Shown here: positions 1 to 3,322 of the stretch, one piece after another | Layout of the letters: each line of letters begins with the position of its first letter | Numbering within the stretch: position 1 is the stretch's first letter | NCBI GenBank assembly: GCA_944326425.1 | Contig: CALVDX010000001.1 | Location: 62,001 to 126,000 of the forward strand | Direction of reading: 5' to 3' | DNA length: 64,000 nucleotides | From: Candidatus Gastranaerophilales bacterium | GTDB taxonomy: Bacteria; Cyanobacteriota; Vampirovibrionia; Gastranaerophilales; Gastranaerophilaceae | Notes under the pieces: generated by a model | Told to the model about the DNA's origin: nothing | Databases searched by the model: none | What the model saw: the letters and a program-made list of their open reading frames with translations, nothing else | Made by a program: the position numbers and the translations under genes

Positions 1-676
1 AACTGGAAAATGTTAAGTAATCTTTTTTCGGTATTTCAAAAATTCCGATTTTTTTGTTGTTTAAAATCATTTCATTAAATGCTGCGCTTATGTAATAAAT
101 TCCCTGAGTGTTTACGTTTTTTTCTATAACAGCAAAAGCCGCATTAACAAAGTCTTTACCGTGTTTAAAGTAGCAGCAGCCGGTAGAGGCAATATTAGAA
201 ATCGGTCTTTTTTCGCTTGTTTGTACTACAAAACCGTTTTCATCAAGAAGTACAGAGCTGTATTTCGGATGAATAGCGTTTATGGTGACTATTCCGCCGT
301 CAAGATTTCTTGTACGGAAGTCTTTGAGGGCAGGTGCAATATCAGTTTTAATTAACTGGCTTCCGTTCAGGATTAACAGTTCATCATCATTATTTATCTC
401 GTCGATTGCAAACAGTGCCGAACATACCGCCCCTTTGGTATCTCCGGCAACTTCTATAATCTTGCTTTGCGGACAGAGGATTTTTAAAGTATCTCCCAGA
501 TAATACTTATCCTGGTCCTCTTTTCTTATTATGCTGATAATATTGTCTCCGATATTTTTAAGAGATTCTATTGTTCTTTGAATAATAGGCTTGTTTTGAA
601 TTTCAATTAAATATTTAGGGTATCCTTTTTCACTAAAATCACTGGCGGAGCCTGCCATTAAAATGATTATATTCAT
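1..676 (-). CDS. sugar nucleotidyltransferase, capsule/LPS type (partial, C-terminus outside window)
   Basis: The gene reads from ATG at 676-674 and stays open to the window edge (about 225 residues seen). The start overlaps the HAD stop as TAATG behind a GGAGGGG ribosome site, so the two are translationally coupled. The N-terminus MNIIILMAGSASDFSEKGY, then YPKYLIEIQNKP, and later GDTKGAVCSALFAID and LLILNGSQ follow the plan of nucleotidyltransferases in polysaccharide loci, which make NDP-sugars. The usual GxGxRF phosphate loop reads GSASDF, and the Asp expected in the NxDQ-like motif is Ser. It may therefore be divergent or catalytically altered. The family is fairly clear; the substrate is unknown. 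Confidence 0.7.
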   Translation of the reverse strand, partial: MNIIILMAGSASDFSEKGYPKYLIEIQNKPIIQRTIESLKNIGDNIISIIRKEDQDKYYLGDTLKILCPQSKIIEVAGDTKGAVCSALFAIDEINNDDELLILNGSQLIKTDIAPALKDFRTRNLDGGIVTINAIHPKYSSVLLDENGFVVQTSEKRPISNIASTGCCYFKHGKDFVNAAFAVIEKNVNTQGIYYISAAFNEMILNNKKIGIFEIPKKDYLTFSS

Positions 677-1374
677 TATCTTACCCCTCCTGTACTAATT
701 CCTGCGGGAATTTTTATATCTTGCGGGGGATTATTTACGCTAAGCCCGCTTTCTTCTATTTCTTTAATTCTGTTTTTAATATTTTGATAAGTAACATCAT
801 TTACTGTTTCAACTTTTAAAAGGTGAGCGCCGCTCGCAAGAGCTGCTTTTACACCGTTAGGATTATCTTCAACAACGAGGCACTCCTCAGGGCGCAGCCC
901 GAATCTTTTTATTGCTGTTTGATAAATTTCGGGATCCGGTTTTGATTTTGTAACGTCCTGGTTAGAGAGTGTGAAATCCAGATATTTTTGTAAATCAGCT
1001 TTTTCCATCATCATGTCGATAGTTACTCTTACGGAGTTAGAAGCAAGAGCAAGTCCGTATCCTTCATTTTTAAGTTTGGAAAGTGCGTATTGATGGCAAA
1101 ACATTGGTTTACATTTCATATAAACGTGTTCCATTGTGTAAATTTGTTTCATGTGGTTTATAAATTTATGCAATCCCTGTGGCAGCCCCTTTTCAATAGA
1201 CAGCATTTCAAGTTTCTTTTTTGTCGGGAGTCCGTCAAAAGTTACAAGGTGGTCATATCTTGAAATTTTGAACCCGAATAATTCAAGAGCCTGGTTTAAT
1301 GCCTCGTAATGCCAGTCTTTTGCATCAATAAGGACACCGTCCATATCAAAAATTATTGCTTTAATCTTTGTCAT
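676..1374 (-). CDS. HAD-superfamily phosphatase (beta-phosphoglucomutase-like)
   Basis: This 232-residue protein has the HAD motif I FDMDGVLIDA, motif II region LASNS, the KPDPE loop and the motif IV acidic pair VVEDNPNG, with a helical cap between. A longer reading from 1395 is possible, but AAGGAG sits 7 nt before the ATG at 1374, which I take as the start. It overlaps the upstream GDPD-like gene by 14 bp and is coupled to the nucleotidyltransferase downstream. Members dephosphorylate or isomerise small sugar phosphates in the cytoplasm. In this operon a sugar-phosphate step in surface glycan synthesis is the natural inference. Confidence 0.8.
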   Translation of the reverse strand: MTKIKAIIFDMDGVLIDAKDWHYEALNQALELFGFKISRYDHLVTFDGLPTKKKLEMLSIEKGLPQGLHKFINHMKQIYTMEHVYMKCKPMFCHQYALSKLKNEGYGLALASNSVRVTIDMMMEKADLQKYLDFTLSNQDVTKSKPDPEIYQTAIKRFGLRPEECLVVEDNPNGVKAALASGAHLLKVETVNDVTYQNIKNRIKEIEESGLSVNNPPQDIKIPAGISTGGVR

Positions 1375-1990
1375 TAAAAAACTCCTTTGCTTCATTAGGA
1401 TAATCTGTACAGACCATTATTCCGGGGACATTTTTATATCTGCCCCAAATCTTTTTGTATTCCCGTTTATGTAAGTCCGGTGAAACAATGCAGACTTGTT
1501 TGTTTTTGTTGAGAATTTCAGTAATTTTTTCTTCACCGAACCAGTCAGAATTGAAAGAATCCAGCCAAACTCCTTTTGCTCTTTCAAACAGTACAGGATT
1601 AGGTACAATGTCACTAATGCCGGTAAATACATTCAGCCCGAGCTTGTGCTGATAAACCATTTCCGGAATACTCATGTCAAACGTGAAATAGTTTGTATGA
1701 TTGTATTTTTCAAGCAGCCTTTTTATTTCATCTGCAAGTCCGTCGGCTTTAATATTTAGTGCAATCGGCAGGTTTCTTCCATTGAGCAGCTTAAGAAGTT
1801 CTTCAAAAGTCATTTCCCCGCCCTCCGGCATATTATGGGAAATAACTATTTCGCCTGTTACATCTCTTAAGTCTGTTTCTATGCCGAATCCGTTGTCAAA
1901 AGCCCGCTCAAAAGCGCGCTTTGAATTCTTTTCCTCTTCCTTTATCCACCATCCTCTATGTGCCAGGATTGTTATTAAGTCGTTTCCCAT
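1361..1990 (-). CDS. GDPD/PI-PLC-like phosphodiesterase family protein
   Basis: This 209-residue TIM-barrel-type protein opens with LAHRGWW, then IETDLRD and VISHN. These correspond to the HRG, ExD and HxN motifs that hold the metal and catalytic histidines in glycerophosphodiester phosphodiesterases. It is shorter than typical GDPD enzymes (about 240-300 residues) and has no signal peptide, so it is probably cytoplasmic. It begins 3 nt after the stop of the recombinase-like gene, in one transcript with HAD and nucleotidyltransferase genes. Such small GDPD-like proteins occur in capsule loci; the substrate here is unknown. Confidence 0.7.
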   Translation of the reverse strand: MGNDLITILAHRGWWIKEEEKNSKRAFERAFDNGFGIETDLRDVTGEIVISHNMPEGGEMTFEELLKLLNGRNLPIALNIKADGLADEIKRLLEKYNHTNYFTFDMSIPEMVYQHKLGLNVFTGISDIVPNPVLFERAKGVWLDSFNSDWFGEEKITEILNKNKQVCIVSPDLHKREYKKIWGRYKNVPGIMVCTDYPNEAKEFFNDKD

Positions 1991-1992
1991 CT

Positions 1993-2523
1993 CTATAATA
2001 CTACCCCTTCTCTGCAGCGTAAATTCATGTTTTCCTGAACACCGATAAATTTTAAAGTTAAGTTAACTGTCGTCTGGTTAAATAACCATTGAAGATAAGA
2101 TAAATCTTTGTATTTCTGGTAATGGTGGTAAGCAAAAGTTTTCCGCCAGGATGCAACTGATATACAGTCCGGAAGTCCCAATTCTTTACAGATGTTTTTA
2201 AAAGTATTAAGTACACTCCAACGGTCTAGTTTTCCGCCGTTTTTTGATTGAAATAAAAGCTCGTTATTTTTTTTGTCTGCTGTAAATTGTAAAATTAATG
2301 TTTTAAGTTCATCATTGAGCGGCACGGATTTGTTTTTATCCAGAAGCAGGTATTCTTTATTTTTAACATCTCCGACTTTTAGATTGAGCAAATCATTAAG
2401 TGCCATCCCTGTATTTATGGCTAATGTAAACAGCAATAAATCTCTAATTAGCCCTTTTCTATTATATAAATCTTTTATTACATTTATATTTTGAATATCT
2501 GATATCGGAACGCTAGTCGTCAT
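1993..2523 (-). CDS. catalytically dead tyrosine-recombinase paralogue, first gene of glycan operon
   Basis: This 176-residue protein aligns end to end with the intact recombinase at 2783-3322 (shared RKTF-YHHY-KYKD block). It has lost the active site: Arg I is Ala41 (GMALND against GLRISD), the His of HxxR is Ala124 (only Arg127 remains), the second His is Gln150 (FNQTT against FNHST), and the nucleophilic Tyr is Phe159 (LKFIG against LRYIG). The frame is intact over 530 bp with a GAGG-type ribosome site. Retention therefore suggests a selected non-catalytic role such as DNA binding, recombination directionality or transcription control. It leads the operon and starts 46 bp from the left inverted repeat. 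Confidence 0.85.
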   Translation of the reverse strand: MTTSVPISDIQNINVIKDLYNRKGLIRDLLLFTLAINTGMALNDLLNLKVGDVKNKEYLLLDKNKSVPLNDELKTLILQFTADKKNNELLFQSKNGGKLDRWSVLNTFKNICKELGLPDCISVASWRKTFAYHHYQKYKDLSYLQWLFNQTTVNLTLKFIGVQENMNLRCREGVVL

Positions 2524-2568: not shown

Positions 2569-2598
2569 TTCAATACATTTTTAGTATTTTGTATTGAA
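2569..2598. repeat. left inverted repeat / recombinase crossover site (IRL)
   Basis: This 30-bp sequence is repeated perfectly in inverted orientation at 2747-2776. It is built as arm TTCAATACATT, 8-bp asymmetric core TTTAGTAT, and arm TTTGTATTGAA. The two arms are reverse complements at 10 of 11 positions. An 11-8-11 layout is the classic shape of a tyrosine-recombinase core site (compare lox and FRT). It lies 46 bp upstream of the recombinase-like first gene of the operon. Confidence 0.85.
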
Positions 2599-2746
2599 TA
2601 TTATCTTTTCTTAAGGTTAGCACGAACATATTATTATGAAAAGCTTTTTTAAGTATTGTTAAATATGTAATTATAAAAATTTTATATATTGGATTTTATT
2701 TGTTAATTTGAAGCTAATAAGCAAGTCTTGCCCGTACATTTACCCC
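2599..2746. other. putative invertible segment (148 bp promoter switch)
   Basis: This AT-rich, non-coding segment is bounded by the perfect 30-bp inverted repeats, with an intact tyrosine recombinase on one side and a minus-strand operon on the other. In the orientation shown it carries candidate minus-strand promoters pointing at the operon. Inversion would turn them toward the 3' end of the recombinase gene, antisense to it. This is the layout of phase-variable promoter switches; inversion itself is inferred, not observed. Confidence 0.75.
2633..2662 (-). promoter_or_regulatory. candidate promoter inside invertible segment
   Basis: On the minus strand TTAACA (2662-2657) is followed after 18 bp by CATAAT (2638-2633), each one mismatch from the sigma70 consensus. 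It points at the recombinase-like gene and glycan operon. A second candidate (TTAACA, 16 bp, TAAAAT) lies farther upstream in the same segment. The DNA is very AT-rich, so chance matches are likely and the exact promoter is uncertain. Confidence 0.4.
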
Positions 2747-2776
2747 TTCAATACAAAATACTAAAAATGTATTGAA
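2747..2776. repeat. right inverted repeat / recombinase crossover site (IRR)
   Basis: This is the exact reverse complement of 2569-2598, with arms and 8-bp core in opposite orientation. Recombination between the two would therefore invert, not delete, the DNA between them. It begins 6 bp beyond the stop codon of the active recombinase gene, so enzyme and site are tightly linked. Confidence 0.85.
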
Positions 2777-2782
2777 TTTGAA

Positions 2783-3322
2783 TTACAAAATAAAATTAGT
2801 GTAACATTTATCAATCATGTCTTGTTCTATTCCGATGTATCTTAGAGTAACTTCAGGTGTAGAATGATTAAATAATTTTTGAAGCATTGCTACGTCTTTA
2901 TATTTTTTATAGTGGTGGTAACCAAAAGTTTTTCGCATTGTATGTGTGCCGAATTTATCATCAAGTCCTGCTTCTTTGCAGGCCTCTTTTACGATGTAAT
3001 ATGCGGCGACTCTATCCAGTCTGTTATGGAATTTTGTCATAAATAATGGGGCGTCGGATTCTTTATCTTTTGTATAATCATCCAGCATGGGTCTCAGCTT
3101 TGAATTAATTATGAGCTTTTTAAATTTTCTGGTTTTCTTTTCTGTAATTTCAATATAGTTTTTCTTTTGTACATCTTTTACATCGAGGGCTAAGATGTCG
3201 GAAATCCTTAATCCGCAGTTTATGCCGATTGTAAAGAACAAAAGATTTCTTGAATTTTTACTAAGAATTTTTTCAACTTTTCTAAGGTCTTTAATTTTTC
3301 TTATTGGTTCTACTGTAGACAT
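2783..3322 (-). CDS. tyrosine recombinase, catalytic domain only (putative invertase)
   Basis: This 179-residue protein has the full active site: Arg39 in GLRISD, a lysine in the EKKTRK beta-hairpin (about 62-63), His127 and Arg130 in HTMR, His153 in NHST, and nucleophile Tyr162 in LRYIG. It lacks the N-terminal SAM-like core-binding domain of XerC/D (about 300 residues), so it is a minimal enzyme. AAAGGAT precedes the ATG. Its 3' end abuts the right 30-bp inverted repeat, and I infer that it flips the 148-bp segment. The dead paralogue on the other side of the switch arose from the same ancestor. Confidence 0.9.
   Translation of the reverse strand: MSTVEPIRKIKDLRKVEKILSKNSRNLLFFTIGINCGLRISDILALDVKDVQKKNYIEITEKKTRKFKKLIINSKLRPMLDDYTKDKESDAPLFMTKFHNRLDRVAAYYIVKEACKEAGLDDKFGTHTMRKTFGYHHYKKYKDVAMLQKLFNHSTPEVTLRYIGIEQDMIDKCYTNFIL

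Follow-up and report, generated by a model that had tools for sequence, protein, structure and literature searches.

In the DNA examined here (hereafter the window), a stretch of 64,000 nucleotides from the Gastranaerophilales, uncultured gut relatives of cyanobacteria, two 30-bp sites enclose a 148-bp putative promoter segment that is in all likelihood inverted by the adjacent recombinase, resulting in ON/OFF phase variation of a surface polysaccharide. The pair of sites and the enclosed segment very probably constitute an invertible promoter that is phase-variable and lies ahead of glycan genes, because related loci carry equivalent pairs and relatives show the segment in opposite orientations. 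Comparison with these relatives supports the anatomy of the sites, their association with a recombinase family, inversion in the relatives, a promoter-like motif, and the presence of downstream glycan genes. The features of the window, as predicted from its sequence, are as follows.

1..676, minus strand: operon gene 4, a nucleotidyl transferase that runs off the window start
676..1395, minus strand: operon gene 3, a HAD phosphatase (beta-phosphoglucomutase-like)
1361..1990, minus strand: operon gene 2, no Pfam or NCBIfam match
1993..2523, minus strand: pseudo-recombinase, first gene of the putatively switched operon (176 aa, 36% identical to the active recombinase)
2569..2598, plus strand: predicted distal (operon-proximal) recombination site (30 bp, arms TTCAATACA / TGTATTGAA)
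2581..2586, plus strand: predicted overlap of the distal site, 6 bp, TTAGTA (no mismatch across the central 6 bp in any of 25 pairs; natural inversions)
2599..2746, no strand: 148-bp intervening segment, predicted to be invertible (equivalent segment inverted in relatives)
2611..2635, minus strand: weak candidate extended -10 promoter reading into the operon (would be ON; motif model with the window included)
2747..2776, minus strand: predicted recombinase-proximal recombination site, exact inverted copy of the distal site
2759..2764, minus strand: predicted overlap of the proximal site, 6 bp (plus-strand sequence TACTAA; same pair comparison)
2783..3322, minus strand: tyrosine recombinase, predicted invertase (179 aa, catalytic domain only; PF00589, 5.7e-24)

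The site pair and the adjacent recombinase

The 30-mer TTCAATACATTTTTAGTATTTTGTATTGAA lies at 2569-2598 on the plus strand and its exact reverse complement at 2747-2776, between two minus-strand genes that encode the recombinase (2783-3322) and a paralogue of it (1993-2523); the pair is situated just 3' of the recombinase gene. No third copy was found in the window when up to 3 mismatches were allowed (expectation from 100 shuffles, 0), and these are the only two exact copies of the 30-mer, and likewise of the 18-bp site centre, in the 2.0-Mb genome. The two inverted copies described in an earlier note on this DNA are thus real. A scan of the genome for further sites of the form TTCAATACA-N12-TGTATTGAA returned a next best match with 2 mismatches and six more with 3 (the reversed-pattern control gave 1), and the many unlinked copies without a recombinase that the earlier note had named as evidence against its reading were not found. 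The exact site was also not found in IMG/VR. The claim that the arms match at 10 of 11 positions had to be corrected to 9, the count obtained when TTCAATACATT is set against the reverse complement of TTTGTATTGAA. Facing inverted repeats around a short intergenic segment beside a recombinase form the arrangement that is characteristic of invertons.

The window recombinase carries the complete catalytic set R-K-H-R-H-Y and is assigned to the tyrosine recombinases (PF00589). Its nearest solved relatives by sequence and fold are the XerC/XerD/XerH group, and its family matches the phage integrase PHROG 216. Membership in the FimB/FimE or Xer families was considered and is ruled out by curated cut-offs: the FimB/FimE NCBIfam models (NF007371 and NF007370) gave 33.2 and 23.6 bits where 222 and 221 are required, and the XerC/XerD equivalog models gave 63.8 and 60.4 bits where the cut-offs are 335.15 and 329.6. 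Halanaerobium too has recombinases of this family (L129-L132). Those of L130 and L131 are followed by polysaccharide-type genes, and the sequence 3' of the recombinase yielded no facing pair in any of the four loci.

A second candidate structure was noted in the same genome as the window (L008 1501-1651; G000 C26), where two palindromes with an inverted 12-bp core in common span about 127 bp upstream of a gene for a 1213-aa protein, with no recombinase near. These may represent a trans-acting switch or a terminator, one arm resembling a terminator stem; the homologue in G006 lacks the palindromes.

Equivalent pairs in related loci

Recombinase loci were drawn from 59 genomes, plus 41 named loci, and pairs were counted at recombinases that are at least 58% identical and have at least 300 bp of 3' sequence (n=40), those with less 3' sequence being left out. 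A facing pair lies just 3' of the recombinase in 30 of these 40 loci (union of three pair searches), a count that takes in both of the near-identical loci L101 and L102. By the criteria used, no pair was found in the remaining 10 (L042, L046, L049, L050, L054, L057, L072, L118, L119, and L124), among which the L072 recombinase is a broken copy. A strict rule that combines the dyad with an identical 6-bp core recovers a pair in 20 of the 40 loci, while none of 20 shuffled sets yielded more than 1. Among more distant recombinases, one of the three pair searches found a pair in 3 of 34 (L061, L079, and L093). In L040, L043, L053, L100, and L104, a third site is present 3' of the recombinase; it precedes the second by about 125-165 bp in the same orientation, and three-site switches may exist in these loci.

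A predicted six-base core

The central region of dif-type (Xer) sites is 6 bp, while the overlap of lox and FRT is 8 bp. When 25 pairs, related loci included, were centred by dyad alone, 0 of 150 positions from -3 to +3 were mismatched between paired sites, whereas -9 to +9 as a whole (18 positions) held 29 mismatches; 0 of 20000 permutations were as low at the core. The result is weaker after removal of related loci (16 pairs with 13 differences; 70 of 20000 permutations as low). Paired copies disagree at position -4 in 6 of the 25 pairs and at +4 in 2, which is not the pattern of an 8-bp overlap of the lox/FRT type. Since the 25 pairs had been found by similarity, the test was repeated on 136 pairs for which dyad strength was the sole criterion of choice; these are mostly chance pairs, among which identical 6-mers peak at the exact centre (15, versus 0-8 at other offsets). 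Moreover, both sites of L043 and both sites of L111 have a core in common (TAGCCA and TATCTA, respectively) despite differing arms. The conserved arm begins at position 7 from the centre, positions 7-10 are complementary in 44-48 of the 50 sites, and ACA-N12-TGT is present in the window site and most related sites.

Strand exchange is consequently better placed in the central 6 bp, TTAGTA, and the core is probably 6 bp, not 8, because paired sites never differ there. The 11-8-11 layout of the earlier note is thereby upheld save for the width of its core: inverted half-sites around an asymmetric core, as in lox/FRT-type sites, are seen in the window and in the related loci, and the 8-bp exchange window gives way to one of 6 bp. 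With the 6-bp core as a rule, such switches could be found from single assemblies even where the arms differ. Separately, outer arms differ between paired sites more than inner arms do (52 versus 15 of 225 each in the 25 pairs).

Natural inversions in relatives

L101 and L102 share 98.9% identity over 8 kb, and a 189-bp stretch that spans the sites is in opposite orientations in the two, with the rearrangement confined to the stretch between the sites. Differences in the outer arm at -11, -8, and -6 are fixed in place and the inner flanks are swapped, which places the exchange inside position -5. Similarly, the segment of L058 (same contig as L123) is inverted relative to that of L122 (98% over 186 bp); there, an outer difference at -4 stays and an inner difference from +12 swaps, as read at one of the two sites. 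Further inverted pairs are L104 and L115 (80%) and L101 versus L106, L107, and L108 (76-78%), such that both orientations, as in invertons, are found between relatives. The suggestion of the earlier note that opposite core orientation predicts inversion, not excision, fits these inverted segments between near-identical relatives. Crossover elsewhere in the repeat, which would speak against the predicted site, is excluded on the outer side in two natural inversions of relatives. Mixed orientation might have shown as contigs ending more often 3' of the recombinase than 5' of it; this indicator was dropped, since ends on the 5' side looked about equally frequent by eye.

A candidate promoter within the segment and the downstream operon

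A motif learned from 25 segments scored 99.1, while none of 12 shuffled sets exceeded 68.5; when the window and L039 were withheld from training, it was TGTTTGTGTTATTATATT, an extended -10-like element. Across 29 segments it points toward the operon in 12 and away from it in 17, as a two-way switch would give. The held-out (leave-one-out) score of the L039 promoter was matched by 0 of 500 shuffles and that of the window promoter by 66 of 500, and because the latter score is weak, assignment of the window to the ON orientation is only a guess. A promoter-like motif appears to be common to the related segments; it is strong across the family and weak in the window. No clear promoter direction in the segments came from a generic E. 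coli sigma-70 matrix.

From 2523 leftwards, the operon encodes the paralogue, the protein without a Pfam match (1361-1990; we take it to resemble a glycerophosphodiester phosphodiesterase), the HAD phosphatase, two nucleotidyl transferases, and then an acyltransferase, a WavE/radical SAM protein, and others; glycan genes continue on the same strand past the window start to about contig position C1:49728. When 28 first downstream genes were scanned, sugar-transfer families dominated, with matches (families overlapping) to family-2 glycosyltransferases in 8, sugar transferases in 4, and Stealth, LicD, and GT8 in 2 each; 4 of the 28 are recombinase-like (PF00589). Outside the window, the acyltransferase gene of this operon contains, within its 3' end, a 12-base C run (L077 4075-4086; G000 C1:60074-60085), at which slippage could provide a second mechanism of phase variation.

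A pseudo-recombinase at the head of the operon

The paralogue at 1993-2523 is, judging from its sequence, a member of the tyrosine recombinase fold that lacks the catalytic set: at the R-K-H-R-H-Y positions it has A, a gap, A, R, Q, and F. It is one of seven such paralogues that form a single tree branch (support 100/99). Both catalytic histidines are absent in all seven, the first arginine is absent in 6, and tyrosine is replaced by phenylalanine in 5. An AlphaFold2 model (mean pLDDT 86) matches XerA and XerH. Between the window and L039 (G004), synonymous sites of the pseudo-recombinase gene are saturated and pN is 0.126, so the protein is kept by purifying selection. In L074 (G006), a site pair lies upstream of a pseudo-recombinase gene, and an active recombinase was not found in the 12-kb stretch taken.

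The pseudo-recombinase may be a modulator that binds the sites of the active enzyme and either adjusts the switch or locks it, and its conservation at the head of the operon raises the testable idea of feedback on inversion. More specifically, we tentatively propose a family of phase switches in Gastranaerophilales, partly spread by Mu-like transposable phages, in which the pseudo-recombinase, made once the promoter is ON, would bind the sites and hold the ON state or slow the return from it; we regard this full scheme as possible and rather doubtful. If it is true, a dead enzyme serves as the memory of an inversion switch.

Proposed mechanism and alternative explanations

In the proposed mechanism, recombinase monomers would occupy the half-sites, which on either side run outwards from position 7, and strands would be exchanged across the central 6 bp. 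The 148-bp segment would then invert, because the cores face each other, and a promoter within it would be connected to or disconnected from the glycan operon, whose start is at 2523. We infer that the adjacent recombinase acts on the window sites, that inversion continues in the window strain, and that a glycan phenotype results; a recombinase acting in trans is also conceivable.

The inverted repeats invite other explanations. The sites could be operators at which recombinase-like proteins, above all the degenerate one, act as repressors, the DNA no longer inverting in the window strain. A pseudo-recombinase that is under purifying selection and adjoins the sites would suit such a role, as would the L074 pair. 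However, the adjacent recombinase is catalytically complete, relatives are inverted at the same place, and an operator has no need of a non-palindromic 6-bp core that is identical in both copies, such that we consider this unlikely. We give still less credence to the sites being the end of a mobile element, used for integration and excision and not for inversion: the core orientation is opposite, relatives are rearranged between the sites only, and the window genome has no match to the Mu-like phage protein gpG, even though the recombinase family matches a phage integrase (PHROG 216) and 16 of 98 items have the module behind Mu-like phage head genes. That the repeats do not recombine and merely form the hairpin of a transcription terminator or attenuator is scarcely credible, since the strong RNA fold of the region (z -4.75) is what any 30-bp inverted pair would give, a terminator scan found none at the repeats, and inversions are present in relatives. 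An invertible promoter acted on by the adjacent recombinase is therefore preferred.

Relation to known systems

FimB and FimE are enterobacterial tyrosine-type invertases of about 180-200 aa that consist of the catalytic domain only and act on a promoter segment between inverted sites. The window system is alike in its catalytic-domain-only recombinase and in a promoter segment predicted to be inverted between two inverted sites; it differs in that sequence similarity is weak and glycan genes, not fimbriae, would be controlled. With XerC/XerD/XerH and dif it has in common a 6-bp central region between half-sites, in addition to these being the nearest solved relatives, but here there is no N-terminal core-binding domain and two facing sites lie beside the gene. 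The G segment of Mu is inverted by a serine invertase and switches tail fibres; it too is an inversion switch on a transposable phage, whereas the enzyme here is a tyrosine recombinase and the genes are for host-surface glycans or secreted proteins. The closest design is that of Bacteroides fragilis BF2766/Tsr19, a tyrosine recombinase with its own invertible promoter directly downstream, serving an exopolysaccharide operon, that acts on a distant promoter too (PMC4747536). The two are alike in a recombinase gene followed by an invertible promoter, a predicted one in the window, of an extracellular polysaccharide operon; they differ in phylum and in the pseudo-recombinase and phage link, which are found on modules of the window type and not in the portion of the B. 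fragilis account considered here.

The design is thus already known, and what is new is the lineage, the six-base core, the pseudo-recombinase, and the phage link, the last two of which the earlier note did not foresee. A literature search found no published phase variation in Gastranaerophilales (Jiang et al. 2019 may have detected it earlier), no invertible promoter in Melainabacteria, and no inverton in Cyanobacteria; for Melainabacteria and phase variation it returned flagellin work only. Judged by title and the start of the abstract, literature on Gastranaerophilales recombinases was off topic, and none matched a catalytically inactive tyrosine recombinase in phase variation. A search for Mu-like prophages with invertible phase-variable polysaccharide returned Campylobacter outbreak genomes only. 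Cyanobacteria and Melainabacteria are absent from the portion considered of the main text of a survey of inversions across bacteria (PMC5903667). An ON/OFF switch of surface glycans that can be read from sequence could be scored directly in metagenomes, making effects of host, diet, and phage on orientation testable.

Association with Mu-like phages

The recombinase follows a Mu-like gpG within 900 bp in 16 of the 98 recombinase items examined, of which 5 are bacterial and 11 are in 10 viral contigs (80 of 316 viral relatives were kept and 76 distinct ones examined). Neighbours of these gpG-linked recombinases include Portal_Mu, Phage_Mu_F, D12 methylase, and Phage_tail_S, and the downstream pair is present in the viral items L179, L183, L186, L187, and L191. 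A gpG match was not found in the window genome, and a search of 6 genomes for Mu gpT gave none. G031 has a short Mu remnant only, beside host genes, and in G024 the same pseudo-recombinase operon comes after Mu-like genes. Copies in Mu-like phages point to phage transfer of phase-variable surface operons from host to host. In L183, L187, L188, L191, L043, and L053, the module adjoins Mu-like phage genes and the apparent cargo consists of glycan genes or genes for large secreted proteins.
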